Source: Chloroflexota bacterium (GTDB lineage: Bacteria > Chloroflexota > Dehalococcoidia > Lucifugimonadales > Lucifugimonadaceae). Taken from it: DNA of 59,136 bases. A model generated the notes under the pieces. It was not told the DNA's origin. It worked only from the letters and a program-made list of their open reading frames with translations, and searched no databases. This document shows positions 1,562-57,531 of the stretch, piece by piece (the first letter of the stretch is position 1; each line of letters begins with the position of its first letter). The stretch covers positions 1-59,136 of the forward strand of contig JABHBJ010000081.1 in the NCBI GenBank assembly GCA_018673955.1, given 5' to 3'. Made by a program: the position numbers and the translations under genes.

Positions 1562-2269
1562 TTGACCTCAAGACAAGAACGACGACAAAATAATAATCCC
1601 CCCAAGAACACAGGCCACAAAAACTGGATGATGATGGGTGGAGTTACAGTTGTAGCTACCGCCATCGCGATCATCGCGTTCGTTGCTCTCTCACCAGAGG
1701 ACACGACCACCCTAGAGCACACTGATGATGCTGTACTGGCGTCGAGCGGCTCGCTTATTGGGGATCCTAACGCACCGGTAACCCTTGTCGAATTCGGGGA
1801 CTTTCAGTGAGTGCACTGTGCAAATTTTGCCCTCGGGACAGGGCAACAGATTATTCGTGAGTACGTAGATACCGGTCGTGTAAATATTCTCTACAGACAC
1901 TTTCCCTTCATCGGCGACGAATCGTGGAGGGCCGCTGAAGCATCGGAATGCGCTGGTGAGCAAGATCGTTTCAAGGTCTATCAGGAAACCGTTTTTGTAA
2001 ACTGGAACGATGCAAACAAAGGTAACTACTCGGACGCCAATCTTCGTACTTTTGGCGAAATGACTGGTCTGTTAATGAATCAGTTTGACGAGTGTATGGA
2101 CACCAACAAGTATCTTCCAAAAGTCGAATCTGATCGACAGGCCGCCCTCGACGCAGGGGTGAAATCCACACCCACATTCTTCTTGAACGGTGAAAATATC
2201 ACCGGACCCGACGATTACGGCTACTACCGAGTCAAGATCGAAGAGGCTCTAGCCAAATTAGGTGGATAG
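1562..2269 (+). CDS. Selenocysteine-containing DsbA-like thiol:disulfide oxidoreductase (UxxC), membrane anchored
   Basis: Read through an in-frame TGA at 1808-1810, this is a 235-residue protein. It starts at TTG with a basic N-terminus, has one membrane helix at about residues 23-44, then an extracytoplasmic thioredoxin-fold domain of the DsbA type. The strand leading to the active site reads VTLVEFGDFQ, then U83-V-H-C86, then ANFA, exactly where relatives have DFQCPxC. The cis-proline loop KSTPTFFLNG is at about 201-210 (Pro204). The frame stays open and homologous on both sides of the TGA, and a SECIS-like hairpin follows at 1827-1846. Downstream VKOR starts 3 bases after the stop, so the pair should form and recycle disulfide bonds outside the membrane. 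A nonsense mutation in a DsbA gene is the alternative; the Sec reading is favoured by the hairpin and by selD in this window. Confidence 0.82.
1808..1810 (+). other. TGA codon read as selenocysteine (DsbA-like protein, residue 83)
   Basis: The TGA lies in the same frame as the upstream 82 codons and the downstream 152 codons and replaces the first active-site cysteine codon of the CxxC motif. The second cysteine (TGT at 1817-1819) is retained. A single base separates TGA from TGT or TGC, which is the usual Cys/Sec exchange. Confidence 0.8.
1811..1846 (+). promoter_or_regulatory. Bacterial SECIS-like hairpin for the DsbA-like gene
   Basis: TTGCCCT (1827-1833) pairs perfectly with AGGGCAA (1840-1846) around the loop CGGGAC (1834-1839). 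The loop begins 24 bases after the TGA and has G at its second position. Known bacterial SECIS elements place an apical loop roughly 16-37 bases after the UGA with a G in the first two loop bases, for binding by SelB. The outer six pairs are identical to the hairpin after the selD TGA. Confidence 0.72.
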
Positions 2270-2272
2270 ACG

Positions 2273-2782
2273 TTGGTTAGCGGTTCAAATTCTTCGGATT
2301 CAGAGAGCGAATCGGCTGCAGTTTTAGGCCGACCTTCAAAGCTGTGGCTGTTCATTGCGCTACTCGGAATCGCCGGACTCGCAGTGACGACTTACCTTAC
2401 TTCGAACGCGCTCTCGCACACAGAAGTCGGATGCAGCATAAGCGGCTGCAACACAGTGCTAGGCAGCAAGTGGTCGAAGATTTTCGGCATCCCTGTATCA
2501 GCGTTTGGAATGGCAACCTACGCCATCATCATGCTCGGTGCGCTCCATGCATATCAATCTCCAATCGACGATCTGAAGAGGCGACGTGTTGTTGCCTTGA
2601 CGACTGCAATCGGCGTACTAGCGTCGATCTACTTAACTGCTATCGAATTCTTCGTAATCAAAGCCGCCTGCCAGTACTGCATCACTTCCGCGGTGCTGGT
2701 TGCGGTCGTAGCAGGAGCGTTGATAGTCGCTGCACGAAAAGAAGGCCCACTGTGGTCAGAGATCCGAATGCGTTCCGATTAA
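2273..2782 (+). CDS. Vitamin K epoxide reductase (VKOR) family membrane protein
   Basis: A 169-residue membrane protein with about four helices. The VKOR signature is complete: a loop cysteine pair C54 and C59 (GCSISGC), the following segment with conserved serine and glycine (IFGIPVSAFG), and the quinone-side active site C133-Q-Y-C136. In bacteria lacking DsbB, VKOR reoxidises the DsbA-like partner and passes electrons to quinone. The TTG start has a good ribosome site (AGGTGG, about 8 bases upstream) that lies in the end of the Sec-DsbA gene, so the two are co-transcribed and probably translationally coupled. The N-terminal 20 residues are serine/acid rich and cytoplasmic. Its natural partner is therefore most likely the adjacent UxxC protein. 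Confidence 0.9.
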   Translation: MVSGSNSSDSESESAAVLGRPSKLWLFIALLGIAGLAVTTYLTSNALSHTEVGCSISGCNTVLGSKWSKIFGIPVSAFGMATYAIIMLGALHAYQSPIDDLKRRRVVALTTAIGVLASIYLTAIEFFVIKAACQYCITSAVLVAVVAGALIVAARKEGPLWSEIRMRSD

Positions 2783-3363
2783 CCCGCGTCATCCGGCAAG
2801 AAGTTGTCGATCAGCGACGCACAGCGAATCATTGCTTGCTCGGAGTCGAGACCGTCGCAAAGAATCACCATGTTGCCTACGATCGCCCAATCCTGATACG
2901 TCGGACCCGGTGCCTGGCGTGAGCCACCGCTCGAAACATCAGTAACGCCACGAGCCTGCCAACGATCCTTCACGCCCTCAGTCCAAACCTGCTCATCACG
3001 TTTGGCCTCGAACTCCGCACCAGTGGCGTCGATAGCTAGCTGCTTACCGCTCGAAACTGCCAATGTATGCGATGCGTAGAAGCGAATCTCATAGTCGTGG
3101 CGGTCGTACGGATCCAAACCCCAGAAACCCTTCCAAGCATCTAGTCCATCAGGCAGACCTTCAACATCATAGTTCTTTGAAGCTTTAAGCCCAATCGCTT
3201 TGAGGTCTTCGATAGTGTAATCAGCTGGAGCATCACGAACCTGCACAAAACTATCAACGTCATCCACTGCGTTACCGCCACAGGCCGTCAAAATGGCAAC
3301 CAATAACACGACAGAGCTCATCAAAACGCCGTATCTCGCAATTCGTAGATTACGACCCACCAT
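2779..3363 (-). CDS. Putative lipoprotein of unknown function
   Basis: I choose the ATG at 3361-3363, because a longer frame up to 3504 would overlap the sulfatase gene. The product is then about 194 residues with a basic start, a hydrophobic segment and a lipobox ending LTAC (cysteine near residue 27), so it should be lipid-anchored and exported. The mature part is mixed alpha/beta, with two cysteines near the C-terminus, and matches no family I recognise. It overlaps the end of the convergent VKOR gene by 4 bases and lies downstream of the sulfatase on the same strand, 83 bases away, possibly in one transcript. Confidence 0.65.
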   Translation of the reverse strand: MVGRNLRIARYGVLMSSVVLLVAILTACGGNAVDDVDSFVQVRDAPADYTIEDLKAIGLKASKNYDVEGLPDGLDAWKGFWGLDPYDRHDYEIRFYASHTLAVSSGKQLAIDATGAEFEAKRDEQVWTEGVKDRWQARGVTDVSSGGSRQAPGPTYQDWAIVGNMVILCDGLDSEQAMIRCASLIDNFLPDDAG

Positions 3364-3446
3364 AAGAAAACTCCATCTGACTATTTCGAATATAACGGCA
3401 GTATATGTACATCTAAACAAAAAGTCGCCAAACCGCCACAAACGCC

Positions 3447-4943
3447 CTACACTTTCGACGGTTTCTCGTACGTGGCTTCGCTGGTTCGGGGTGAGTTTGG
3501 CCATGGACGATTCCAGCTTTCGTAGCCGAAAGTTGGGTCCTGCGACATATCGCCGTTCTGAGCCAAGCGATCGTCCATCGAACCTTCGATAGAAGCCATC
3601 AGTTCCTGCGTCAGCTCGATTTCTAACCTAGCAACGATGTCAGCGAACTCAGGGTTCCCGAACAGATTCACCTGCTCTTGTGGATCGTTCAGCATGTCGA
3701 ACAGTAACGTCTCACCAGTTCGATATTTGTGCAGCTTGTAGCGACCGTCAAAGTTCATCCAACCATCGCCCAATAAGCCAAAAATATTCTCTCGACCCGA
3801 TTCACCCGGCATTCCGTCGCCCGGAAGCGGCTGCGCGTCATACCACGTAGGCTGATCGATTCCGGCCCAACTGAGCATTGTCGCAGTTACGTCTCGAAGC
3901 TCGACTAGCCCCTCTTGAACCTGACCCGCTTCGATACCGGGTCCCATCGCGACCATCGGCACTCGTATCGCCGATTCGTAGAACGATGCTTTGCCGATTA
4001 AGTTGTGATCGCCAAGATAATCGCCATGATCCGATGCCAGCACTACGTAGGTGTTTTCGAGAAGTCCTTTGTTACGGAGCGAATCGAGAATGGCACCGAC
4101 TTCGAAATCGATCTGCTGAACGAGTCCAGAGTAGTGCTTACGAACGGTGTGCTTGGTCTCGTCAGGGAACTTAGAGTAGTCGACACCGTTCCAAGGTCGC
4201 TTGTTGCCGTCGACGTTGCCTTTGCGCAGTTGAGGAGTGTGTCCAGGCACTTCGGGAGCAGCCTCGGGAATCTTCGATTCGTCGATGCCTTCCAAGAACC
4301 GCTCGTCAGGGTCGTAAGGGCAATGCGGTCCAGGGAAGCCGACCATCATTGCGAACGGCTGGTCCGATCCGTAATCATCGATAAATTTCACAGCTTCTGA
4401 TCCAACGAATCGATCCCACGAATGTTCCCAAGGCACATCGTGAATCACGGCTCCCTTGTTCTCGTGGTAACCGGGCATTTCATTGCCGTGCAGCTTCTTC
4501 AGACCGTGACGCTTTAAGTAGTGGAAGTAGTCGTCACGAACTTCGAGCCAGCGTTTGTCTTCACAGATCACTCGATACTGAAAACCGCGCCGTTCGTCCC
4601 ACGGATAGAAGTGCATTTTGCCGATTCCAGCGGTGTAGTAGCCGTTCTCACCAAGAATTTCAGGCCACGTGCGTAGGCCCGCGTCTCGCCAGTCGGCACG
4701 TAGGTTGTGCAAGTTTCCGGTCACGCCGTTTCGGATGGCGTTCATTCCGGTGAGCAACGCCGTTCGGGCAGGCACGCAAATGGGCGAAGCTGAGAATGAG
4801 TTTGTGTAGCGCACTCCGTTTTCAGCTATCGAATCTATGTTCGGGGTTTGCAGCCAGTCGGCTCCGTTACAGCCGGCGAAATCGGCACGGAACTGGTCTG
4901 GAAATAGAAAAACTATATTGGGTCGCGTCTGATCTGCGGACAA
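3447..4943 (-). CDS. Type I sulfatase (arylsulfatase/choline sulfatase-like)
   Basis: A 498-residue member of the alkaline-phosphatase superfamily that hydrolyses sulfate esters. The nucleophile motif C56-V-P58-A-R60 followed by TALLTG is the CxPxR signature, in which the cysteine is converted to formylglycine. Metal ligands are seen in the N-terminal strand (FPDQ, Asp16) and in ASDHGDYLGDH (about 285-295). There is no obvious signal peptide, so it may be cytoplasmic and act on imported sulfated organics. Length is normal for the family. No maturation enzyme (FGE or radical-SAM type) is nearby. Substrate is uncertain. A lipoprotein gene follows on the same strand. Confidence 0.93.
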   Translation of the reverse strand: MSADQTRPNIVFLFPDQFRADFAGCNGADWLQTPNIDSIAENGVRYTNSFSASPICVPARTALLTGMNAIRNGVTGNLHNLRADWRDAGLRTWPEILGENGYYTAGIGKMHFYPWDERRGFQYRVICEDKRWLEVRDDYFHYLKRHGLKKLHGNEMPGYHENKGAVIHDVPWEHSWDRFVGSEAVKFIDDYGSDQPFAMMVGFPGPHCPYDPDERFLEGIDESKIPEAAPEVPGHTPQLRKGNVDGNKRPWNGVDYSKFPDETKHTVRKHYSGLVQQIDFEVGAILDSLRNKGLLENTYVVLASDHGDYLGDHNLIGKASFYESAIRVPMVAMGPGIEAGQVQEGLVELRDVTATMLSWAGIDQPTWYDAQPLPGDGMPGESGRENIFGLLGDGWMNFDGRYKLHKYRTGETLLFDMLNDPQEQVNLFGNPEFADIVARLEIELTQELMASIEGSMDDRLAQNGDMSQDPTFGYESWNRPWPNSPRTSEATYEKPSKV

Positions 4944-9065: not shown

Positions 9066-12000
9066 CTAGCCAGCGCTCATCGGTGTCGAGCCTGCGTGGT
9101 CGCTGGCAGTGGCAGCCATTGCCATTTCCATCATCTGCATCATGCGTTCTTGGAACATCTTGATCTGCTCCATCACCGCCATGAGCTCGTCGATCCACTC
9201 AGGATCGTCACGGTCAATATCGACCCGTATCTGCATGTGACCAACATCAACGCCAATACCCAACTGCTTCTGCAGAGGCTCCCGGGCGCCACCAGTCGGT
9301 TGCTTGAGTGACATCACGGCACGAAACTCTTTGGCACTGATCAATTCGACTCCGGCTGCCTGAGCCAGCACGCGCATTCGAGTCGACTTCATCAACAGCT
9401 TCACATGAGTTGGCATCGGGCCGAATCGATCACGAATCTCCTCATCAATATCGTTTATTTCCTCGTCCGATTGCATCCGCGCTAACCGCTGGTAGATCGA
9501 AAGTCGCTGCGCTAAATCTTCGATATAGCTATCGGGAATTCGTGCGTCGATTCCAATATCGACACGAACTGTTGAGAACTCAGGTGCTTCTGGTTCTACC
9601 GGTTCGTCGGAGTCGCCATTGGCTTTCAACTGACGAACAGCATCTGCAAGAAGCTTGGTATAGAGATCAAATCCTATCGCCGAAATCTGACCTGACTGCT
9701 CGGATCCGAGCAAATTTCCTATGCCTCGAATTTCGAGATCACGTAAAGCAATTTGATACCCAGCCCCGAGTTCAGTCGCTGCAAGAATCGTGTTCAGGCG
9801 TTGTTCTGCCTGTTCTGTAAGTGCCTTAGCACGTGGAACCATCAAATATGCGTATGCCCGGTTGGCACCACGTCCGATTCGCCCACGAATTTGATAAAGC
9901 TGTGACAAACCGAACATATCGGCTCTATCGACGATCAACGTGTTGGCGTTCGGGAGGTCGACTCCTGATTCGATGATCGTTGTACACAACAACACATCGA
10001 ACTCGTGGCGACCGAACGAGGCCATCACTTTTTCTAGTTCGTCTTCGCCCATCTGGCCGTGACCTACTTGGACGTTCGCTTCGGGAACCAGTTTTTGCAG
10101 CTTGCTCGCGAGAAGTTCGATGTCTTTTACACGGTTGTGCAGGTAGAAGACTTGACCACCTCGATCAAGCTCACGGAGTATCGCTTCCCGAATTAGGTCG
10201 TCGCTCTCTTCCGATACGTAGGTCTTGATCGGCAACCGTTCTTCTGGCGGTGTTTCAATCGTGCTCATATCTCGAACACCCGCCAACGACATGTGCAGTG
10301 TACGTGGAATAGGCGTTGCACTCAGAGTCATGATGTCAACCTGCGTACGCATTCGTTTGAGACGCTCTTTGTGCGTAACGCCAAACTTGTGCTCTTCGTC
10401 GATGATTACTAGCCCAAGGTCTTTGAATCGAACGTCTTTTTGCAGCAGTCGATGTGTGCCAATAACAATATCGGCGCTACCGTTGGCGATTTTGGCGATC
10501 GTCTCTTTCTGCTGCTTATCCGTGCGGAAGCGTGAGAGCATATCGACGCTTGCAGGAAACGGCTCTAATCGTTCGGAGAAGGTTTCCAAGTGCTGTTGCG
10601 CAAGCACAGTGGTCGGAACAAGAATCGCAACCTGTCGACCCGATTGGACAGTCTTGAATGCTGCTCGTAAAGCGATTTCCGTTTTGCCGTAACCAACGTC
10701 ACCACAGACCAATCGATCCATCGGCTGCGATGATTCCATGTCGGCCTTCACAGCTTCGATAGTCGTTAGCTGATCAGGAGTCTCTTCAAATGGGAAGCTT
10801 GCTTCGAGCGAGTCCTGCCAAGGAGTATCAGGAGTAGCTGCTAACCCAGTCGCAATCTTTCGTGACGCATACAAAGCAATCAGTTCGCCAGCAAGCTGCT
10901 CGGTTACCTTCATGGCTCGGGCTCTCGCCTTGCTCCACTCCTGCGTTCCGAGTCGGGTGAGTCGAGGTGATGAGTCAGCGGCACCGTGATAGAGCTGTAT
11001 TCGATCAAGATGTTCAGTGGGGACGTACAGTTTGTCGTCTTGGGCGTATTCGAGAACCAGATATTCCTGACCCTCGGAGCCCATCACCTGAGTTCCAATG
11101 AACTTGGCAACACCATGCTCGACGTGAACTACATACGAATCGGGCTTGAGCTGATCGAGTGCTGGCCCCTTGCGCATTGGGCGTTTACGTACACGGCGTC
11201 GTTCTTTTTGAACACCAAATACTTCGGAATCACTGAGAATCGATACCTCAGTACCATCTGAGGCTTCGATCGAAAAACCAGTAAGCAAATGCCCTGTAAC
11301 GATATGAATTTCGCCGGGTTCAGGAGGTTGATCAACCGTTTTTACGAGACTCGCTTCAACGCCCGCTTCTTCGGTGATTTCGTGAAAACGCTGGGCATGG
11401 TTCGTTATTACGACTGTACGTTTCTTTTCAGGAATGCCATTGCGAACGATTTCTAAAGCCGTCTCGACTCCGCCACTTACCAGAGACGGCAATTTCAGAG
11501 GTAGCCCCAATGCACCGCCTTGAAGCTGTTCGGCGTCGATGCCCCATGGCGAAAGCGTCATGCTCTTGGGTCGGGCGCCCATCGCATCTGAAACGAATCC
11601 CCACTCTAAGTGAGGCTGAGCAAAGCCAACTGGCACGTCGCCGCGCTTTTCTTTAGCCGCCCGGAGCTGGGCCATGCGCCTGTCCTGACCCTGAGAGGTT
11701 TCTTCGATTGCTCCGGGACGTAAGGCGACCATAAGGCTTTCGGCAGACATGTAGTCGAACACGTTGCCTAGATTGAAGAACCCAGCGTAGTAAGAAATTT
11801 CGTCAAGTACTTCACCGGCGAGTGCGTGACTGAGTTCCGAGGGGATTCGACGCTGTGCTTCTTCCGAAGTACCCGCAAGATCCATATTGCCTAGAAGCTC
11901 TTGCACTCGGTCTTGATCTGCCAACATCGGCAATGTTTCAAGAGCAGGAGGAATAGTTACGCTGCGAGTTTTCGCAGCAGAACGCTGAGTACCCGGATCG

Positions 12001-12638
12001 AAGAATCTCAGACTTTCGATTTCGTCATCGAACAATTCGATCCGAACCGGGCTTTCGCTGGAGACTGGAAATATATCTAGGATTCCACCACGACGCGAGA
12101 AAGTACCAGGGATCTCGACCGTCGGCTCATGGATATAGCCCATCTCAACCCACAGTCGAGTCTGAGATTCTAGATTTATGCGATTCCTCTCACTCAGTGT
12201 GTGGGTCGATGAATCGAATACCGAACGTTCAAGAGTTGCCTGAGAAGCGGCATTTACCGAGGCGATAATCAGTGGTTGTTTGACACCTTTTACATCACCA
12301 CGCATTGCGGCGAGCGCGCGAAGACGAGCGTGACTTGCTCCGCGATCAGGAACATATCGTTCAAAAGGGATGTCTTCCGACTCTGAAAAGTGGAATATTG
12401 GAGCATCATCGCCGAGCCATGTGAAAAGGCGATCATGCAGTCGTCGAGCTGATCCCGGATTAGGAGTCAAAACGAAAACAGGCGCGGCAGACTCACGCCA
12501 GAGTGTCGCCACAGCGCATTCCGTGGCGGGGTCTGGTGCTATCACTGCCGCCCGCGCTCTTGGAGCACGGAGGCTATTTAGAAGTGCTGCAAACTGTTCG
12601 GTTTTGCCAAGCAGTGGGAGCAATCCCGACAGACTCAT
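9066..12638 (-). CDS. mfd: Transcription-repair coupling factor
   Basis: A full-length 1190-residue Mfd, the ATP-driven translocase that removes RNA polymerase stalled at DNA lesions and recruits UvrA. Visible in order: the UvrB-homology N-terminal module (SESEDIPFERY, RRGGILDIFP); the RNA polymerase interacting domain at about 500-560 (VVHVEHGVAKF); the RecG-like motor with Walker A GDVGYGKTEIA (about 646), DEEH (about 744), LSATPIPRTLH, and QIRGRIGRG (about 912); and the C-terminal TRCF domain from about 1000. It is divergently transcribed from proB with about 200 bases between. No oddities were seen. Confidence 0.98.
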   Translation of the reverse strand: MSLSGLLPLLGKTEQFAALLNSLRAPRARAAVIAPDPATECAVATLWRESAAPVFVLTPNPGSARRLHDRLFTWLGDDAPIFHFSESEDIPFERYVPDRGASHARLRALAAMRGDVKGVKQPLIIASVNAASQATLERSVFDSSTHTLSERNRINLESQTRLWVEMGYIHEPTVEIPGTFSRRGGILDIFPVSSESPVRIELFDDEIESLRFFDPGTQRSAAKTRSVTIPPALETLPMLADQDRVQELLGNMDLAGTSEEAQRRIPSELSHALAGEVLDEISYYAGFFNLGNVFDYMSAESLMVALRPGAIEETSQGQDRRMAQLRAAKEKRGDVPVGFAQPHLEWGFVSDAMGARPKSMTLSPWGIDAEQLQGGALGLPLKLPSLVSGGVETALEIVRNGIPEKKRTVVITNHAQRFHEITEEAGVEASLVKTVDQPPEPGEIHIVTGHLLTGFSIEASDGTEVSILSDSEVFGVQKERRRVRKRPMRKGPALDQLKPDSYVVHVEHGVAKFIGTQVMGSEGQEYLVLEYAQDDKLYVPTEHLDRIQLYHGAADSSPRLTRLGTQEWSKARARAMKVTEQLAGELIALYASRKIATGLAATPDTPWQDSLEASFPFEETPDQLTTIEAVKADMESSQPMDRLVCGDVGYGKTEIALRAAFKTVQSGRQVAILVPTTVLAQQHLETFSERLEPFPASVDMLSRFRTDKQQKETIAKIANGSADIVIGTHRLLQKDVRFKDLGLVIIDEEHKFGVTHKERLKRMRTQVDIMTLSATPIPRTLHMSLAGVRDMSTIETPPEERLPIKTYVSEESDDLIREAILRELDRGGQVFYLHNRVKDIELLASKLQKLVPEANVQVGHGQMGEDELEKVMASFGRHEFDVLLCTTIIESGVDLPNANTLIVDRADMFGLSQLYQIRGRIGRGANRAYAYLMVPRAKALTEQAEQRLNTILAATELGAGYQIALRDLEIRGIGNLLGSEQSGQISAIGFDLYTKLLADAVRQLKANGDSDEPVEPEAPEFSTVRVDIGIDARIPDSYIEDLAQRLSIYQRLARMQSDEEINDIDEEIRDRFGPMPTHVKLLMKSTRMRVLAQAAGVELISAKEFRAVMSLKQPTGGAREPLQKQLGIGVDVGHMQIRVDIDRDDPEWIDELMAVMEQIKMFQERMMQMMEMAMAATASDHAGSTPMSAG

Positions 12639-12844
12639 TCAGATTTCCGTATACCTATTAATCAGGCTCTGCATTGATCGGGCTAAGAGCCTTAATCAAC
12701 ACTCCGCGAACACAGCTAAAGGACCATCGAGCAAAATACGGTGACCTTGGTATCGTTCCATGCTAGCACTGAGGGTCGCCCACGCTACAAAATAACCAGT
12801 ACATATCTCGTCAACTTCGACCATTCTTGCTCCACAATCAATAA

Positions 12845-13996
12845 ATGATGGATAACAAGCGCCCAAAACGACCAAGCCGTATCGTCGTGAAACTCGGAAC
12901 CAACCTGCTTACAGGCGGTAAAGACGCGCTCGATCTCGAAACGATCGGCAGCATATTCGCTCAAATCGCTTCAGTGAAATCATTGGGCGTAGAAGTACTG
13001 ATAGTTAGCTCAGGTGCGGTTGCCGCGGGGCGAGAGTCACTTTCTCGCACACCTAGAAAAAACAAGCTTCAACGAGGTACTGTCGCCTATCGGCAGGCAT
13101 TAGCCGCCCTAGGACAACCACAGTTGATGATGACGTACGAACAGTTTTTCGCCAATCACCAAATAGAAGTTGCCCAGGCGCTAATCTCACGTGGTGATTT
13201 GCAAAGTCGATCTCGCTATCTAAACGTCCGAAACACGCTCGATGCTTTACTTTCGATTGGTGCAGTGCCGATTATTAATGAGAACGATGTAGTTGCGGTC
13301 GAAGAGCTCGCTGGCGAAGTTTATGGCGACAACGATCGACTTTCTGCAATGGTTGCAAACACCGTCGATGCCGATCTACTGATTCTTCTTGGCGACATGG
13401 ACGGCCTACACAAGACCGACCCACACATCGATCCGAACTCTGAATTAATCTCTCAAGTGGACATAATCGACGAATCGATAGAAAAATCCGCTCGCGGCCC
13501 ACACGATCTTCAGGGCAGTGGCGGAATGGCAAGCAAGCTCGACGCTGCGCGGCTATCTACCGACTCGGGAATCCCTATGGTCATTGCCTCGGGAAGAATT
13601 GATGGCGTGATCGAATCGATCTGCAATGGCGATGAAATCGGTACCCGGTTCGTCTCCAACGTATCGCGACGTGAAAGTCGCAAACGCTGGATTCTCACCG
13701 GTCGTACTGAACACCGAGGAAGCGTAGCAGTCGACACTGGCGCATCCAATGCATTGAAGAACAATGGATACAGTCTTCTACCAATTGGAATCGTCTCGGT
13801 TTCAGGTCCTTTCGAGAGAGGCGATATCATTGAAGTTACGGAAATCGATGGAACGACCATCGGATGGGGGATCGCTTCATACCCATCGACTGACGTTGAA
13901 CGAATAAAAGGTGAAAAATCAAACGTATTGCCCGACTTATTGGGTCACTACTACGGTGCTGAAGTAATTCACCGCAACAACCTGGCACTGCCGTAA
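12845..13996 (+). CDS. proB: Glutamate 5-kinase
   Basis: 383 residues; phosphorylates glutamate to glutamyl-5-phosphate, the first step of proline synthesis, in the cytoplasm. The amino acid kinase domain starts VVKLGTNLLTGG, continues with VSSGAVAAG and INENDVVAVEE, and has the ATP loop LLILGDMDGLH-type sequence and GSGGMASKLDAA. A C-terminal PUA domain occupies about residues 285-365. It is the full PUA-containing form and should be feedback-inhibited by proline. proA follows after 35 bases. The start region CACAAT-caataa-ATG lacks a ribosome site and may be leaderless. Confidence 0.97.
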   Translation: MMDNKRPKRPSRIVVKLGTNLLTGGKDALDLETIGSIFAQIASVKSLGVEVLIVSSGAVAAGRESLSRTPRKNKLQRGTVAYRQALAALGQPQLMMTYEQFFANHQIEVAQALISRGDLQSRSRYLNVRNTLDALLSIGAVPIINENDVVAVEELAGEVYGDNDRLSAMVANTVDADLLILLGDMDGLHKTDPHIDPNSELISQVDIIDESIEKSARGPHDLQGSGGMASKLDAARLSTDSGIPMVIASGRIDGVIESICNGDEIGTRFVSNVSRRESRKRWILTGRTEHRGSVAVDTGASNALKNNGYSLLPIGIVSVSGPFERGDIIEVTEIDGTTIGWGIASYPSTDVERIKGEKSNVLPDLLGHYYGAEVIHRNNLALP

Positions 13997-21886: not shown

Positions 21887-22113
21887 ACGCAGTAGCAAAT
21901 CAATTGCCAAACCTTACCCATCACAAATGCTGAATTGAAGCTGGGTCAGGCACATACTCTCGCACGAACGTTCCTACACTTCTCCCAAAAACGACTACTG
22001 CCACGACCTCTCCAACCAAAAAACGCTTCGCCGCCCGAGCTGGTGCGCTAAGCGAGCCAAAGTACCGCCGCTATTGGATCGGCACGTTCGTTTCATCGGG
22101 TGCCGTTCAAGTC

Positions 22114-23265
22114 GTGCAACTCGGGATTGGTTGGCTGATCATTGCCGATTTTGGAGAATCAGCGAGCACTCTTGGATTACTAGGCGCGGCAATCGCAATA
22201 CCTTCGATAATTGTGAATATATTCGGAGGCGTTATCGCCGATCGTATGGATCGCCGGTACATCATGATCGTAACGTCGGCGGTGAACGCAACGCTGATGA
22301 CAATTCTGGCGTTGCTAGTCACAAGCGGTATCGCTGAAGTATGGCATCTGATCGTCATTGCGGCTGTCCAGGGATTCTTCTCTGGATTAGATGGCCCCGT
22401 GAAAGCATCGTTCTTCCCGCTGTTGGTGAGTCGTAAGAATCTGATGAGCGCTGTGGCGTTGAGTTCCGTCACCTGGCACATTAGTCGAATCATCTCGCCA
22501 TCGATTGGCGGTCTCGCTATCCGATACATGGGCACCGAATCGGTCTTCTTCGCCGGCGCCTTGGGCTGGATAGCCATGCTGGCTGTCATCATTAGCCTAC
22601 GTGTACCGTATAAAAAACCTGAGGTTCAACGAAGGGTTCTTCAGGATTTGACCGACGGTGTGAAATTCATCGCCAGAAGTCGATTTTTATCTGCGCTCAT
22701 CCTTCTCAGTTTTGCCAAGATGTTTTTCGGCATGCAGTACCTACTGCTCATGCCCTTGTTCGCAGTTCGACACGGACTTGAAGCCGACGGATTAGGCATA
22801 ATTTTTGTCGTACTTTCTGCCGGTGCGATATCCGGAACGATTATTGCCCCCAAATTGCAGCGCAGCAATCACGCAGGAAAGTCCATGATCGGTGGAGCGT
22901 TTGTTTTCACATTCTTTGTGACCGGATTCGCCTTCGCCCCAAGCTACGGAATTGCTCTTATAGCAATCTATGGTGCGGGAGTCGTGCACTCGGTATTTTT
23001 GGTGATATCCATGACAGCGATTCAAATGCGACTGCCATCGAACTACCGGGGTCGAGTCATGGGCATATACACAATCTCGTTCGCACTAATGCCTTTGGGA
23101 GGACTTCTTGGCGGCAATATCGCAGAGATCTACGACGAGCGATGGGCGCTGACGTTCTCGGCGGGAATATTGATGGTAATCATGGTTATCGCCTACATAA
23201 CTCAATCGGAGCTACGAAACCTTAGAGGCGATCAGCTAACAGCCACAGAAATGACTGACGCTTAG
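22114..23265 (+). CDS. MFS transporter (drug/siderophore efflux type), start uncertain
   Basis: A member of the major facilitator superfamily close to the two MFS proteins at 45272-47829 (shared GALS..KYRRYW, FGGV.ADR.DRR, and RGRVMGIYTI motifs). GTG at 22114 is the only canonical start, but it falls inside the first membrane helix. Homology in the same frame extends upstream to about 21991 (KRFAARAGALSEPKYRRYW), and the frame is open from 21934 with no ATG, GTG or TTG. The real start may be non-standard (ATT 21934 or ACG 21991) or has been lost. Function would be proton-driven export of an unknown compound. Confidence 0.82.
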   Translation: MQLGIGWLIIADFGESASTLGLLGAAIAIPSIIVNIFGGVIADRMDRRYIMIVTSAVNATLMTILALLVTSGIAEVWHLIVIAAVQGFFSGLDGPVKASFFPLLVSRKNLMSAVALSSVTWHISRIISPSIGGLAIRYMGTESVFFAGALGWIAMLAVIISLRVPYKKPEVQRRVLQDLTDGVKFIARSRFLSALILLSFAKMFFGMQYLLLMPLFAVRHGLEADGLGIIFVVLSAGAISGTIIAPKLQRSNHAGKSMIGGAFVFTFFVTGFAFAPSYGIALIAIYGAGVVHSVFLVISMTAIQMRLPSNYRGRVMGIYTISFALMPLGGLLGGNIAEIYDERWALTFSAGILMVIMVIAYITQSELRNLRGDQLTATEMTDA

Positions 23266-45241: not shown

Positions 45242-45271
45242 TTTAAAGACTATATGCGCTTGCTATTTCGG

Positions 45272-46561
45272 TCACCTATCCTGCGCAGGATCTTCGTGCA
45301 AATTTCTGACTTTTCGTTGAGTAAGAAAAATTACAGAAATCATCACCAACATTATCGTCGGGCCTACCATCATTCCTGCTCGAAGACCCAGCACAGTCGC
45401 CAGGCTACCTGTCCATAGCCCGCCAAGTATTCCGACGCTCTGTGAGATAGCAAACACCCCCATAACTCGGCCACGAATGTCTTCGGGAACACGTAGCTGA
45501 ACCGCCACTATTGAAGAAATATTGAACAAGCCGTTCCCAAAGTGAGCCGCTGCTGCCAGCGGCATAGCAAGTGCCAACGAGGGCGAGTTTGAAACTATCA
45601 ACATGATCAATGAAAACGACGCTGCTCCTGCAAGGATGATCCAACCTAGACGACGACCGGGGGACAATCGACCGGCGACGATTATTCCGCTCAACGCTCC
45701 TATGCCTCCCGACGAAAACATGAAGCCGACTTCTCGTTTTCCGTCGCCAAATAGCTCGACGTATGCCGGCAACATTCCGATCCAGCCAAAAACCATCAGC
45801 ATGTTCGAGAAAGCGAGGATCAATAGCACCAACAGAACTCGGTGACTTCTGATGTAGTTAATTCCGGTGCCAAGATCACGAATCACGCTCCGCTGAACGA
45901 TCGATGTTCCACGTCGAGGCAGCACCACGGTTGCCGCGAACATGGCGAACCAACCCAGTGCAGCGATGAAGAAACCAAACGGTGTACCAAATTCTGCCAT
46001 CAGCAACCCACCCACAGTAGGTGCAACCACCGAAGCCGAGGCCATGAGCGATCCATTGATCGTCACAGCACTTTTCATAGCCGATTTTGGCACCAATGAT
46101 GGAAAATACGCCTGACGCGAAGGTTGATCGGCACCCGATACAAACCCGGCGAATACAGCTATCGAGAATATATGCCATGGCTGAACCGTATTTGTGAAGT
46201 CCAACACCCCAAGCAGCACAAACAGCAAAGCACCGATGAACGCCGATCCACCGAGCAGGAATTTCGCCTCGTATCGATCGGCGAACACGCCGCCAAAGAT
46301 GTTCACAAGCATCATTGGTATCGCCGTTGCAGCAGCGACCCCACCGAGGCTAAGCGGTGATCCGGTTAACTCCCACATCAATAGGCCTTGAGCCACCGCT
46401 CCGAGCCTGAGGGCATTCATCGCAAGTACGGTGCCACCAAAATAGATACGAAAGGGCTTGAACGATAACGCGCTAACGCGACGTTCTACTTGGGTACCAG
46501 CCGACGACTCGGTCTGGTCGTCGGCTGGTACCAATTCACTGCCAGAATCAGCGTTGCTCAC
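45272..46561 (-). CDS. MFS transporter
   Basis: 429 residues with about 12 helices, of the same family as the next gene and the one at 22114: FGGVFADRYEAKF in loop 2-3 and DIRGRVMGVFAI in loop 8-9 region. The N-terminal 25 residues are polar. Its start codon overlaps the stop of the upstream MFS gene in ATGA (46558-46561), so the pair is translationally coupled. Two different half-partners or two separate exporters are both possible. Substrate unknown. Confidence 0.9.
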   Translation of the reverse strand: MSNADSGSELVPADDQTESSAGTQVERRVSALSFKPFRIYFGGTVLAMNALRLGAVAQGLLMWELTGSPLSLGGVAAATAIPMMLVNIFGGVFADRYEAKFLLGGSAFIGALLFVLLGVLDFTNTVQPWHIFSIAVFAGFVSGADQPSRQAYFPSLVPKSAMKSAVTINGSLMASASVVAPTVGGLLMAEFGTPFGFFIAALGWFAMFAATVVLPRRGTSIVQRSVIRDLGTGINYIRSHRVLLVLLILAFSNMLMVFGWIGMLPAYVELFGDGKREVGFMFSSGGIGALSGIIVAGRLSPGRRLGWIILAGAASFSLIMLIVSNSPSLALAMPLAAAAHFGNGLFNISSIVAVQLRVPEDIRGRVMGVFAISQSVGILGGLWTGSLATVLGLRAGMMVGPTIMLVMISVIFLTQRKVRNLHEDPAQDR

Positions 46562-52713: not shown

Positions 52714-53925
52714 CTACTCTTCGGAATCGTCACTATCGTCGAAGGTGAGCGATGGGACTTTCGCCGGATCAGCCCACGGAATATCGAGCATGAGCACTTC
52801 GAGAGTTAGCTGTGGAACGGCATTTGCTTCTAAAGCGATCGTCGCATCCTGAATCGAAGTAACAGCTGCAGATATCTGAGACTCTTTCAGCTCACCCGCA
52901 ATTTCAGAAAGCAATTCCGCCCATTCCGTGTTGGTCACATGATCGTTCAGCTTGTGACGCATCATCGCTACGTCGCGCCACCATTCAAGCCAGCGCCGCA
53001 TCTCTTCCAATACAGCGTCACGATCTCGCCAGAACTGTCCACCGATCTGACGTGCGTACCTGAATCGTTCTTCGATATTGCCTGTAACGATCTCAGCAAA
53101 CCGCAGAACAGCCTGATTATGACCGTCGACAATCGTCGAATCATTTAGAGCACCGATTGCCCAGCCGGGGCAGCCACGTGCGAGCCGTGACAGTGAGCGA
53201 GCTTGCGATTCTTCAGCTTCGAATCTTTCGATTAGCTCAGCTTCGATCACCTCTGGGTCAACCGGTCGCAAATCTATTCGTTGGCATCTTGAAACGACCG
53301 TTTCAGGCAACGCCTCCTCGGTTGGCGACGTAAGAATGATCAAGGTGTCGTCGGCAGGTTCTTCGAGCGTCTTGAGAAGCGTATTTGCTGCTTCGATAGT
53401 CATCCGCTGAGCGTCATCGATGATGAAAACCTTGCTCAGGCCCTCGAACGGCTTCGTTGCTGAATCACGAATCAATTCACGTATGTGATTGATCGATATA
53501 TTCTGGCGCCCTCGTTTGCCGCTCTCTTCAGCGTCACCACCAGAGCTAGACCCTTTGGAGTCTTTTTCCAACTCGGTATTAACGTCGATTACTCGAACGT
53601 CGGAATGAATTCCTTTTCGAATTCGTTCTGATTGGTGAGAAGTGGAAAGATCTATGCTGTCGGCAGTACCGAACATATCGACCACCGCCTCGCTATTGAC
53701 CATACAGGCGATATCGATCGCTAAAGTACGTTTGCCAACTTTGTCGGGACCCGTTATCAAATATGCATGAGCCAAGCGACCACTCTCGGACGACTTCGAT
53801 AAAAGCCGCGTCGCACCCGGGTGCCCAAACGTGGTCCACCCAACAATGGGGGGACGTGTGACTTCGGGTGAAACGAGATCAGTCAAGATCGAGACTCGAT
53901 GCGAGTAGGTCTGAGTAGGTTTCAC
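52714..53925 (-). CDS. holB: DNA polymerase III delta' subunit-like AAA+ protein
   Basis: Up to 403 residues; clamp-loader subunit. Motifs are GPDKVGKRTLA (P-loop region), FIIDDAQRMTIEAANTLLKTLEEP (Walker B and sensor area) and VVSRCQRIDL (SRC). The zinc-binding cysteine set of many delta' and gamma/tau proteins is absent. The ATG at 53925 overlaps the end of lysA by 47 bases; TTG at 53884-53886, close to the lysA stop, is a plausible alternative. Confidence 0.88.
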   Translation of the reverse strand: MKPTQTYSHRVSILTDLVSPEVTRPPIVGWTTFGHPGATRLLSKSSESGRLAHAYLITGPDKVGKRTLAIDIACMVNSEAVVDMFGTADSIDLSTSHQSERIRKGIHSDVRVIDVNTELEKDSKGSSSGGDAEESGKRGRQNISINHIRELIRDSATKPFEGLSKVFIIDDAQRMTIEAANTLLKTLEEPADDTLIILTSPTEEALPETVVSRCQRIDLRPVDPEVIEAELIERFEAEESQARSLSRLARGCPGWAIGALNDSTIVDGHNQAVLRFAEIVTGNIEERFRYARQIGGQFWRDRDAVLEEMRRWLEWWRDVAMMRHKLNDHVTNTEWAELLSEIAGELKESQISAAVTSIQDATIALEANAVPQLTLEVLMLDIPWADPAKVPSLTFDDSDDSEE

Positions 53926-55204
53926 GCCGGCGAATTAGCCGTGCTTCGCCACCATTCACCATCACGACTGCAGGTCGCGTCTGCATATTGTAGTTGCTCG
54001 CCATCATCAGGCAGTAAGCACCTGATGCGGGAAGAGCCAATAGCTCGCCTGTTTCGACTTCTGGAAGGGCAACATCCCGGGCAAGTACGTCGCCAGATTC
54101 GCAGAATTTGCCTGCGACGGTGACGGTCTGGTTTCGATTAGCGTTCGGACGATCCACCGGCACGACGGCGTACTCAGAGTCGTACAGCGCAGGGCGAATA
54201 TTGTCGCCCATTCCGCCGTCGACACTGACATATGTTCGAACGTTCGGGATGGTCTTGATTCCGCCAACGGTGTACACAGCAACCCCGGCACGACCCACGA
54301 TCGCACGGCCAGGTTCGACAGAAACTATCGGTTCATCTAGTCCGTACGTGTCACAGCCTTTTCGAATGGCTACTGCAATCTCTTTGGCGTAGTCACTCAT
54401 CGCAGGAGGAAGCGTGTCGGATACATATCCAATAGCAAATCCTCCGCCAGGACTAAACCGCTTCAGGTCGAGTCCGTATTTGTCGCGCATATCAGCAGAG
54501 AACTTCAACACGTAGTCGATCGCCTCTGAATACGGTTCCAGTTCGAAAATTGGAGATCCAAGATGGAAATGAACACCGACAACGTCGAGATTGTCTTGCT
54601 CTAACGCCTGTTTAACAGCAATCTCAGCATCGCCTGTTTCGATTGAAAATCCGAATTTCGAATCTAAAATTCCCGTCGAAGTGAGCATGTGAGTGTGCGG
54701 GTCTATACTCGGCGAAAGCCGAAGCATTACCTGCTGCTTCACACCAAGTTCGCCAGCGACTTCGTTCAGCAATTCGATCTCAGCGAACGAGTCGAGCGTG
54801 ATCAGCCCAATGCGGTAGCGTAGAGCTTCAAAGAGCTCTTCACGCCCCTTGTTGTTACCGTGGAAGTTCATTCGATCTGCAGGGAAGTCGGCAGCAATCG
54901 CAACGGCGAGTTCACCGCCGGTCACGACGTCCATGTCGAGACCCTCTTCTTCAATAATTTTCGAAACCGCAGGGTTCGCAAACGCTTTCGAGGAGTATTC
55001 GATGTGCGTCTTTGGATATTCCGCAGTGAAACTTCCAACGAAATCTCGGCAAACATCACGAAGCGTCGCCTCGTCGTAGATGTACAGCGGACTGCCGTAC
55101 TGCTCTACGAGATCACGTACATCACAACCGCCAATGGCTAGTCGACCGCTGTCGCTAAGATCGGCTGTTATCGGAAGTATTTCGGTTTCTGGAATTCTGG
55201 ACAT
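53879..55204 (-). CDS. lysA: Diaminopimelate decarboxylase
   Basis: 441 residues from the ATG at 55204 (MSRIPETEILPI); the frame is open further to 55360 without support. PLP-dependent fold III: the Schiff-base lysine in IEYSSKAFANP, HFHLGSPI, SPGGGFAIGY, SVEPGRAIVGRAG and the catalytic CESGDVLARD. It converts meso-diaminopimelate to lysine, the last step. It ends with TGA, just overlapping holB, with which it forms a unit. Confidence 0.97.
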   Translation of the reverse strand: MSRIPETEILPITADLSDSGRLAIGGCDVRDLVEQYGSPLYIYDEATLRDVCRDFVGSFTAEYPKTHIEYSSKAFANPAVSKIIEEEGLDMDVVTGGELAVAIAADFPADRMNFHGNNKGREELFEALRYRIGLITLDSFAEIELLNEVAGELGVKQQVMLRLSPSIDPHTHMLTSTGILDSKFGFSIETGDAEIAVKQALEQDNLDVVGVHFHLGSPIFELEPYSEAIDYVLKFSADMRDKYGLDLKRFSPGGGFAIGYVSDTLPPAMSDYAKEIAVAIRKGCDTYGLDEPIVSVEPGRAIVGRAGVAVYTVGGIKTIPNVRTYVSVDGGMGDNIRPALYDSEYAVVPVDRPNANRNQTVTVAGKFCESGDVLARDVALPEVETGELLALPASGAYCLMMASNYNMQTRPAVVMVNGGEARLIRRRETYSDLLASSLDLD

Positions 55205-55488
55205 TACGGTTTTCTGATCTGACGGCTCATTGTTTGCGGCCGCATGTTGTGATGCTAAACGAGGCAGCCGCGAAGCGTAAGCCCGCGATTGCAATTGAAA
55301 TTCAAGTACCCAATTGTCGTTCCCGCAAATACAGCCGTCAATTTGAATTGGCAGGATCAATTCGACAAGGAATGAACTATAGATCGCTGTACAGCAATTC
55401 GACTAATCAAATACTGCCACTCGATGTGCAACATATGCATGCGCTTGATGTGTATTTATCCTCTCTTATATGGCAGGATTCAACGACT

Positions 55489-56544
55489 ATGACTGAAAAG
55501 CCTGTACGACTAACCGAACTGGCAAGCTGCGCCGGTTGAGCTGGAAAGCTCAGCGCGAGTGAACTTGCCCAGGTTTTGGGCAAGCTGCCAACCCCCACCA
55601 TCACCGATTCAAACGTGCTGGTCGGAACCGAAACCGGAGATGACGCTGCCATCTACCGGATAGACGATCGCGTCGCTCTCGTACTCACAAACGACTTCTT
55701 TGCGCCTATCGTCGATGACCCGTTCGACTACGGCCAAATCGCTGCAGCAAATGCTCTTAGTGACATCTACGCAGTTGGCGGAACTCCGATCACAGCGTTG
55801 AACATAGCGGCGTTCCCTCGCAATCTAGGCCCTGACGTAATCGCCAAAATTCTCGAAGGCGGACAGGCGAAAGCTGAAGAAGCCGGGATTTTGATTATTG
55901 GAGGTCACACCGTCGACGATAAAGAGCCTAAATACGGACTCGCGGCAGTCGGTATTGTCACACCGGGCGAGCAGATCACGAACGCAAACGCTCAGCCGGG
56001 CGATGTACTGATTCTTACCAAAGCAATTGGATCTGGATTTATAACGACCGCTGGCAAGTTTGGGACTGCGCCTGATAATGCGATTGCCGCCGCTGTGAAG
56101 TCGATGGCGACCTTAAACAAGGGTGCTGCCGTTGCGATGCAAGAAGTCGGCGTAAACGCTGCTACTGACGTGACCGGATTCGGGCTGCTGGGTCACTTGG
56201 CTCAAATGATGAAGGCAAGTGGCACTTCGGCAACTTTGAATTGGTCGGCAATTCCGTTCCTGCCGGGTGCAATTGATCTCGCACACGCCGGATCGACCTC
56301 AGGCGGAACCCGCCGAAACATGGAAGCTCTCGAAGGCAGAGTTCTCTATGGCGAGGGAATTTCTGAGTTCGAATTCATGGTTTTAGCCGATGCCCAAACA
56401 TCAGGCGGCATGCTAATTTCAGTTCCAGAAGAACGAGCCAACGCACTTGTAAAGAGTTTAGTTGCTAATGAAACACTTTACAGTGAGGTAGTCGGACGAG
56501 TCGGCAACGATGGGCAGCTGGGCACAGTAACGATCGAAAAGTAG
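55489..56544 (+). CDS. selD: Selenide, water dikinase (selenophosphate synthetase), selenocysteine-containing
   Basis: Read through the in-frame TGA at 55537-55539, this is 351 residues (E. coli SelD is about 347). The ATG at 55489 has AGGA upstream. The N-terminus is MTEKPVRLTELASCAG, then U17-A-G-K20, matching the catalytic Cys17/Lys20 position of SelD. Then follow the glycine-rich ATP and Mg residues in VGTETGDDAAIYR and NDFFAPIVDDPFDYG, AANALSDIYAVGGTP and, later, GFGLLGHLAQMM. Its role is making selenophosphate for tRNA-Sec charging. A SECIS-like hairpin follows the TGA. The preceding lysA diverges. Confidence 0.93.
55537..55539 (+). other. TGA codon read as selenocysteine (SelD residue 17)
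   Basis: The codon lies in frame between ASCAG and AGKLSASEL; in E. coli SelD the equivalent residue is Cys17. Sec at this place is well known in SelD proteins from many organisms, which supports the reading. A second cysteine (Cys14, SCAG) lies three residues before. Confidence 0.9.
55540..55584 (+). promoter_or_regulatory. Bacterial SECIS-like hairpin for selD
   Basis: CTTGCCC (55564-55570) pairs with GGGCAAG (55578-55584), seven perfect pairs around the loop AGGTTTT (55571-55577). The loop begins 32 bases after the TGA and carries GGU, matching the known bacterial SECIS pattern of a G near the loop start and a following U. Its inner six pairs TTGCCC/GGGCAA are the same as in the DsbA hairpin. 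Confidence 0.8.
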
Positions 56545-56766
56545 CCTTATCCTCCCGCGTCCCGACCGAAGCGGAGGGGCCTGGGGCGGACGAGGTGAAA
56601 CCGCTCTCAGCAGCCAACAACGTTCAATCGCCTCGGACTTTCGGAGAACACGATTCAACCAGCTATCGTTCCCTCCACACTCACCCAAACGTGCCATACA
56701 CAAGCCCTAGCCCCGCCAAATCCCTCGGCTGCCGCTCGGGACACACGATTAAGGTGCCCACCAAGA

Positions 56767-57531
56767 CTACTCAGTCCTGTCCCAAATCCTCGCTCGTTCG
56801 ATATCAGGCATCTCAGCTAGCACTTCATCACCCGCTACTTCCTCCGCCCGCAATACGTGATCCCGCAACCCAACCGTCGCCTTCCTCAAAGCCGTTTCGG
56901 CGTCGATTCCAGCAGCATTCACTTGTCGAGCGACCGCCATCAGGTACTCTCCGGCTCGTTCTTCACCATCTTCGAGTGATTCGCCCTCGATCGACCCAAA
57001 AGCCAACGGCATCGAATGCCTTTCTGGCCAAGGCAATCCCGCACGCATCACACGCTTCTGCACTGAAGATGAATACGCCAAGGCAGGCATCGCTGATGGC
57101 AGCGAAGCGACTATCGAACGTTTACCGCCTGCTTCAGCACGCTTCAAAGCTTCCCAGCGATCAACTACCTGCTCCGAGTCGGTCACTTTCTCGTCATCAC
57201 CAAATACATGCGGGTGCCTGGCGATCATTTTTTCTCGAATCACGTTGCACACCGCCGCCGCGTCGAATCCGTCTTCACGACGAGCGATATCGGCGTGAAA
57301 CAGAATTTGGATCATGATGTCGCCCAATTCTTCAGCCAAACCACCCGAATCGCCAGAATCGATAGCCTCAAGCGTTTCGTACGTCTCTTCGAGCAAGTTG
57401 GGTCGAAGCGAAACGTGAGTCTGCTCGGCGTCCCAAGGACACCCTCCGGGGTCTCTCAACAACTCAACAGTCGCCGCCAGCTCGGCAAACGCCTCTCCGG
57501 CCGTTTTCGCCTGATCGCTAAGTGAACTCAA
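56767..57531 (-). CDS. mazG: Nucleoside triphosphate pyrophosphohydrolase
   Basis: 254 residues from a TTG at 57531, which has GGAG about 7 bases upstream. A longer frame to 57582 would leave only 3 bases to the divergent next gene. MazG motifs are LRDPGGCPWDAEQTH, LLEETYETLEAI (the ExxE metal site), EELGDIMIQILFHADIA, and the second domain around RHPHVFGDD. It hydrolyses NTPs to NMP and pyrophosphate, helping house-cleaning and stress. selD converges on it; the 222-base spacer holds no clear gene. Confidence 0.92.
   Translation of the reverse strand: MSSLSDQAKTAGEAFAELAATVELLRDPGGCPWDAEQTHVSLRPNLLEETYETLEAIDSGDSGGLAEELGDIMIQILFHADIARREDGFDAAAVCNVIREKMIARHPHVFGDDEKVTDSEQVVDRWEALKRAEAGGKRSIVASLPSAMPALAYSSSVQKRVMRAGLPWPERHSMPLAFGSIEGESLEDGEERAGEYLMAVARQVNAAGIDAETALRKATVGLRDHVLRAEEVAGDEVLAEMPDIERARIWDRTE

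Follow-up and report, generated by a model that had tools for sequence, protein, structure and literature searches.

A predicted selenocysteine-containing DsbA-like protein encoded next to VKOR in a genus of Chloroflexota

INTRODUCTION

Oxidoreductases that combine the thioredoxin fold with selenocysteine (Sec) are mostly treated as reductases or antioxidants. DsbA-like and DsbG-like selenoproteins have been listed since 2005 to 2008 (PMC1088965, PMC2398784, and PMC1794560), and Sec-containing proteins of both kinds also figure in recent reviews (PMC13188914 and PMC9312934). In the accessible portions of the Sargasso Sea, GOS, and genome surveys, these selenoproteins (UxxC; PF01323, PF13462, and COG1651) have Sec as the leading residue of UxxC within a DsbA/Thioredoxin_4 domain, followed downstream by a bacterial SECIS element (PMC1088965, PMC2398784, and PMC1794560). 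Those portions list families and leave the redox partner unnamed, and a text search for VKOR and operon in the accessible part of the GOS paper (PMC2398784) returned nothing. A functional precedent for a DsbA-VKOR pair of the Cys type exists in mycobacteria, where Rv2969c (DsbA) adjoins Rv2968c (VKOR) (PMC3792642).

Here, we describe a Chloroflexota locus, located in a window of 59,136 nucleotides (the whole stretch of DNA that was analyzed), which joins these two known kinds, the Sec-DsbA proteins and the Cys-type DsbA-VKOR neighbors. Like the survey selenoproteins, its DsbA-like protein has a Sec-first UxxC motif and a downstream SECIS, but the gene adjoins VKOR, and no other of its kind was found in the genome. 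A sequence-only reading of the window had mentioned Sec-containing DsbA-like proteins from marine metagenomic selenoproteomes. The protein shares a VKOR neighbor and a second, noncatalytic disulfide with the mycobacterial DsbA (PMC3792642), which differs in having a Cys active site and shows 21 to 23% identity in the structure match. The closest matches in both sequence and structure, Wolbachia alpha-DsbA1 (3f4r) and Bacillus BdbD (3eu3), likewise differ by their Cys active sites (26 to 27% identity). The best curated match is NCBIfam NF041057, a Chloroflexota family of Rcas_1661 thioredoxin-like (seleno)lipoproteins; however, the score of 135.5 bits falls below the cutoff of 190, and the lipobox is lacking, with no Cys before residue 83. 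Our literature search, with most subscription journals beyond reach, found no report combining selenocysteine, DsbA, and VKOR, which is weak evidence of novelty.

RESULTS

The dsbA-like gene lies on the plus strand at positions 1562 to 2269, with a TTG start that is kept across most of the genus, a TAG stop, and 235 codons read through an in-frame TGA (1808 to 1810, plus strand). This TGA corresponds to residue 83, the first position of a UxxC redox motif whose second residue, Cys86, is encoded at 1817 to 1819 on the same strand; the motif reads U83-V-H-C86 and places Sec at the nucleophilic position of CxxC. Three bases separate the dsbA stop from the start of the VKOR gene (2273 to 2782, plus strand; TTG start, TAA stop, 169 residues; PF07884, 1.6e-24), and the two genes are probably cotranscribed. 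The 3' end of dsbA contains a Shine-Dalgarno-like AGGTGG (2260 to 2265, plus strand), 7 bases before the VKOR start, that may act as the ribosome-binding signal of VKOR. Adjoining VKOR on the minus strand (2779 to 3504) is a gene for a DUF6810 protein (PF20650, 8.4e-57) with a lipoprotein-like start. The closest named relatives of the host (Dehalococcoidia/Chloroflexi metagenome genomes) and its gene content point to a marine habitat.

The sequence-only reading had proposed that the TGA replaces the first active-site cysteine (U-V-H-C), that its two flanks are homologous in one frame, and that VKOR follows 3 bases on, all of which held. Residues 64 to 222 constitute one Thioredoxin_4/DSBA domain spanning the TGA (Pfam, 1.7e-32). 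Across 197 genomes surveyed in and around the order, all 14 homologs from the genus, that of the present genome included, had TGA at codon 83 (protein identity, 62 to 100%), and the present genome contained a single match to the joined 235-residue protein, with one TGA. The same reading had looked to Cys homologs at residue 83, and relatives with a readable codon had either Sec or Cys at this position: the codon was TGC in the sister genus g6 (same family) and TGA, TGC, or TGT in other families, many TGA forms occurred among other Chloroflexota (Anaerolineae, Caldilineae, and Thermoflexales), and Cys was present in archaeal and Patescibacteria relatives, as well as in the only two relatives found on viral contigs. 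In a tree with weak deep branches, the Sec and Cys states were clustered yet repeatedly interchanged. Codon changes on both sides of the TGA fell mostly at third positions, indicating that selection acts at the protein level on each half. No homolog was detected in five genomes of the genus (G003, G008, G010, G015, and G018), where either the pair was lost or the genomes are incomplete.

We weighed whether the TGA might be an ordinary stop between two proteins or whether it reflects a pseudogene, an error in sequencing, or codon reassignment. A mechanically called open reading frame does start at the codon that follows the TGA, GTG at 1811. However, truncation or an ordinary stop is ruled out by the conservation of the TGA in 14 independent genomes, the protein-level selection on both sides, and the covarying hairpin described below, together with the Cys found at the same codon in other relatives. 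A sequencing error, which the sequence-only reading had named as fatal to its proposal, is ruled out because separately assembled genomes carry this TGA as well, and reassignment is ruled out by the TGA codons that terminate ordinary genes within the window. We therefore give this family of explanations a negligible probability. As judged from these comparisons, the UGA of the dsbA-like gene is a conserved Sec/Cys site, and the protein presumably contains selenium. One member of the genus (L026, genome G004) has TGA also in place of the codon for the second Cys, yielding U-P-V-U, a possible Sec-Sec motif. We did not accept this form: its VKOR neighbor is frameshifted, with a net loss of ∼67 bases, which makes decay or an assembly error as likely as a real Sec-Sec form.

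A SECIS-like hairpin had been expected within positions 1808 to 1860. The hairpin is present and covaries; the range was right but loose, the element occupying 1827 to 1846 (plus strand). Its 7-bp stem pairs UUGCCCU (1827 to 1833) with AGGGCAA (1840 to 1846) around the loop CGGGAC (1834 to 1839), which has a G near its start, and the element lies a short way past the TGA. This register is shared by most Sec genes in the order; genus g11 and the long-branch genes L051 and L052 differ. In an alignment of 25 sequences, 99.4% of the cells were paired, a percentage that leans toward pairing since the sequences were chosen for their shared register, and 3 of the 7 pairs showed compensatory changes on both sides (in one sequence, L054, an N outside the hairpin was entered as G). 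The covariation score was reached by none of 500 shuffles, pairing dropped to 35 to 54% in controls with a slid partner strand, and RNAalifold predicted the same stem. A covariance model combining the TGA and the hairpin recovered the site, itself among the 25 training sequences, with an E value of 2.3e-11 and found no other good site in the genome. No Rfam family exceeded its gathering score when the window was scanned. Most Cys homologs lacked the stem at that place, full pairing being seen in 1 of 75 (L140, distant archaeal), and the mean folding energy downstream of the codon was −15.5 kcal/mol for 55 Sec forms versus −9.0 kcal/mol for the 75 Cys forms (raw values, uncorrected for base composition). 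Because the stem lies within coding sequence, protein constraint may account for some of the covariation, but the slid controls and the Cys homologs argue against this being the whole cause.

Other SECIS arrangements were also observed. In Sec relatives mostly from other classes, the hairpin starts six bases further on and also covaries. A 7-bp SECIS with a three-base loop at this shifted position was found in L069 to L071, L079, L081, L088, L089, and L098 and likewise in L100, L102, L103, L116, and L130, the carriers being mostly Anaerolineae. Genes L055 to L060 (same family, genus g11) form a Sec-DsbA group of their own, in which the SECIS-like stem differs and VKOR is not adjacent.

The sequence-only reading would have lost its footing if selA, selB, and selC were absent; instead, tRNA-Sec (anticodon TCA), SelA, SelB, and SelD are all present in the genome. 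The selD gene (55489 to 56544, plus strand; TIGR00476, 7.5e-109) is located in the same window, outside the dsbA-VKOR operon, and is a selenoprotein gene itself, with a putative ATG start and one in-frame TGA (55537 to 55539). A single-sequence fold placed a SECIS-like hairpin at 55564 to 55584 (plus strand), CUUGCCCA-GGUUU-UGGGCAAG, and the UUGCCC/GGGCAA stem is common to this hairpin and the dsbA SECIS. Among the window frames checked, namely those with one or two TGA codons and at least 180 residues, selD was the only second selenoprotein gene. Inspection by eye of frames 9066 to 12875, 21904 to 23265, 45263 to 46561, 53693 to 55360, and 56595 to 57365 revealed no further selenoprotein; they look like ordinary stops, upstream extensions, or chance open reading frames. 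In a hand count over the relatives, a SelB match was present for 30 of the 31 genomes that have a Sec form and for 14 of the 19 whose forms are all Cys (Fisher P = 0.024), an association that provides modest evidence since the genomes are related and incomplete. SelB had no match in any of the three g6 genomes with the Cys form.

The DsbA-like protein comprises a cytoplasmic tail, one membrane segment (residues ∼21 to 48), and a predicted exported Thioredoxin_4/DsbA domain (residues ∼61 to 235), export being predicted from the single hydrophobic segment near the N terminus. Across the active site, it scored 113.3 bits against PF13462 (cutoff, 23.2) and 40.8 bits against PF01323 (cutoff, 25.6), and it combines U83xxC86 with an invariant T203-P204 (cis-Pro loop) and a predicted thioredoxin fold with a helical insert. 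The AlphaFold model was confident from residue ∼61 onward, and its best PDB matches were Wolbachia alpha-DsbA1, B. subtilis BdbD, and Corynebacterium DsbA. Cys or Sec occurs only at positions 83, 86, 130, and 178; C130 and C178 are invariant in the alignment and align with C97 and C146 of alpha-DsbA1, the pair mutated in one alpha-DsbA1 structure. In L042 and L047 to L050 (family f30, genus g41), a lipoprotein-like signal at the N terminus and a YceI domain precede the Sec-DsbA domain, a fusion confirmed by Pfam for L047 and L050. YceI-like proteins have been reported to bind isoprenoids or quinones, and the fusion could hint at another electron route.

The closeness of the predicted fold to the oxidizing DsbAs alpha-DsbA1 and BdbD supports an oxidase function. 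However, a selenenylsulfide is generally less oxidizing than a disulfide and is thus not what would be expected of a strong oxidase, which counts against this assignment. The usually more reducing character of selenenylsulfides would suit a genuine selenoprotein whose main work after export is disulfide isomerization or reduction in the manner of DsbG, with VKOR recharging only a minor pool or having a different partner. Such a function would also agree with the filing of PF13462 Sec proteins as DsbG-like in reviews (PMC9312934). Nevertheless, we consider it unlikely, as residues 1 to 60 consist of the tail, the membrane segment, and a linker, with no DsbC/DsbG-type dimerization domain, the nearest solved folds are those of oxidizing DsbAs, and the conserved neighbor VKOR is an oxidase. 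Many marine selenoproteins are antioxidant redox proteins, according to the accessible part of the GOS paper (PMC2398784), and the protein could accordingly scavenge peroxide or other oxidants outside the cytoplasm on a DsbA fold, disulfide formation being secondary. This last function appears very improbable, given that Pfam and NCBIfam searches of the protein returned no peroxidase signature and that the linkage to VKOR persists where Sec is Cys.

The VKOR protein (PF07884, 87 bits; cutoff, 27.5) has four hydrophobic membrane segments, a loop pair, Cys54/Cys59, and a CxxC motif, Cys133-x-x-Cys136. The synteny that the sequence-only reading had proposed to check is preserved: in each of the 14 genus members with the gene, VKOR comes directly downstream in the same orientation (its frame is broken in L026), and it also follows the Cys-form gene in g6. 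The loop cysteines are conserved in all 33 neighboring VKORs and the CxxC motif in 30, the exceptions being L038 (contig end), L026, and L062 (weak hit). An adjacent VKOR was not detected for the YceI fusions, genus g11, or most Anaerolineae Sec forms, and the existence of many related Sec-DsbA proteins without this neighbor counts against recharging by VKOR. Searches of the present genome for disulfide-handling enzymes covered VKOR, Thioredoxin_4, and DSBA, as distinct from DsbB (PF02600), DsbD/CcdA, and TlpA, and each of the three families matched once, at the dsbA-VKOR locus; given an assembly that is ∼87% complete, another system could be absent from the sequence.

DISCUSSION

Taking the evidence on both sides, we think that the locus probably encodes a membrane-anchored, outward-facing Sec-DsbA oxidase that is recharged by the adjoining VKOR. 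According to this model, SelB and tRNA-Sec would read the UGA as selenocysteine at the hairpin located just downstream. Sec83 and Cys86 would then form a selenenylsulfide and pass oxidizing equivalents to exported substrates, with Sec as both the attacked and the attacking residue, and the reduced selenol-thiol form would be reoxidized by the adjacent VKOR through its four cysteines, from which electrons would go to quinone. The net oxidase direction of catalysis and the electron transfer from Sec-DsbA to VKOR are both predictions from sequence, and the five genus genomes in which no homolog was detected weigh against the explanation. We lean slightly against, while still regarding as plausible, the broader proposal that a VKOR-recharged selenenylsulfide is the sole disulfide pathway for exported proteins in the genus, which would make their folding selenium dependent. 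The sister genus g6, in which SelB was undetected, keeps the gene pair with Cys.

Genes of this type are easily misannotated as two fragments, and a plain list of open reading frames splits the dsbA-like gene at the TGA. The Sec and Cys versions of one gene pair in sister genera offer a natural and directly testable comparison. In these bacteria, selenium may be required for the oxidative folding of exported proteins, and a Sec enzyme with a dedicated quinone-linked oxidase as its partner would pose the question of why selenium is used to form disulfides, whether for speed, for resistance to overoxidation, or for both.
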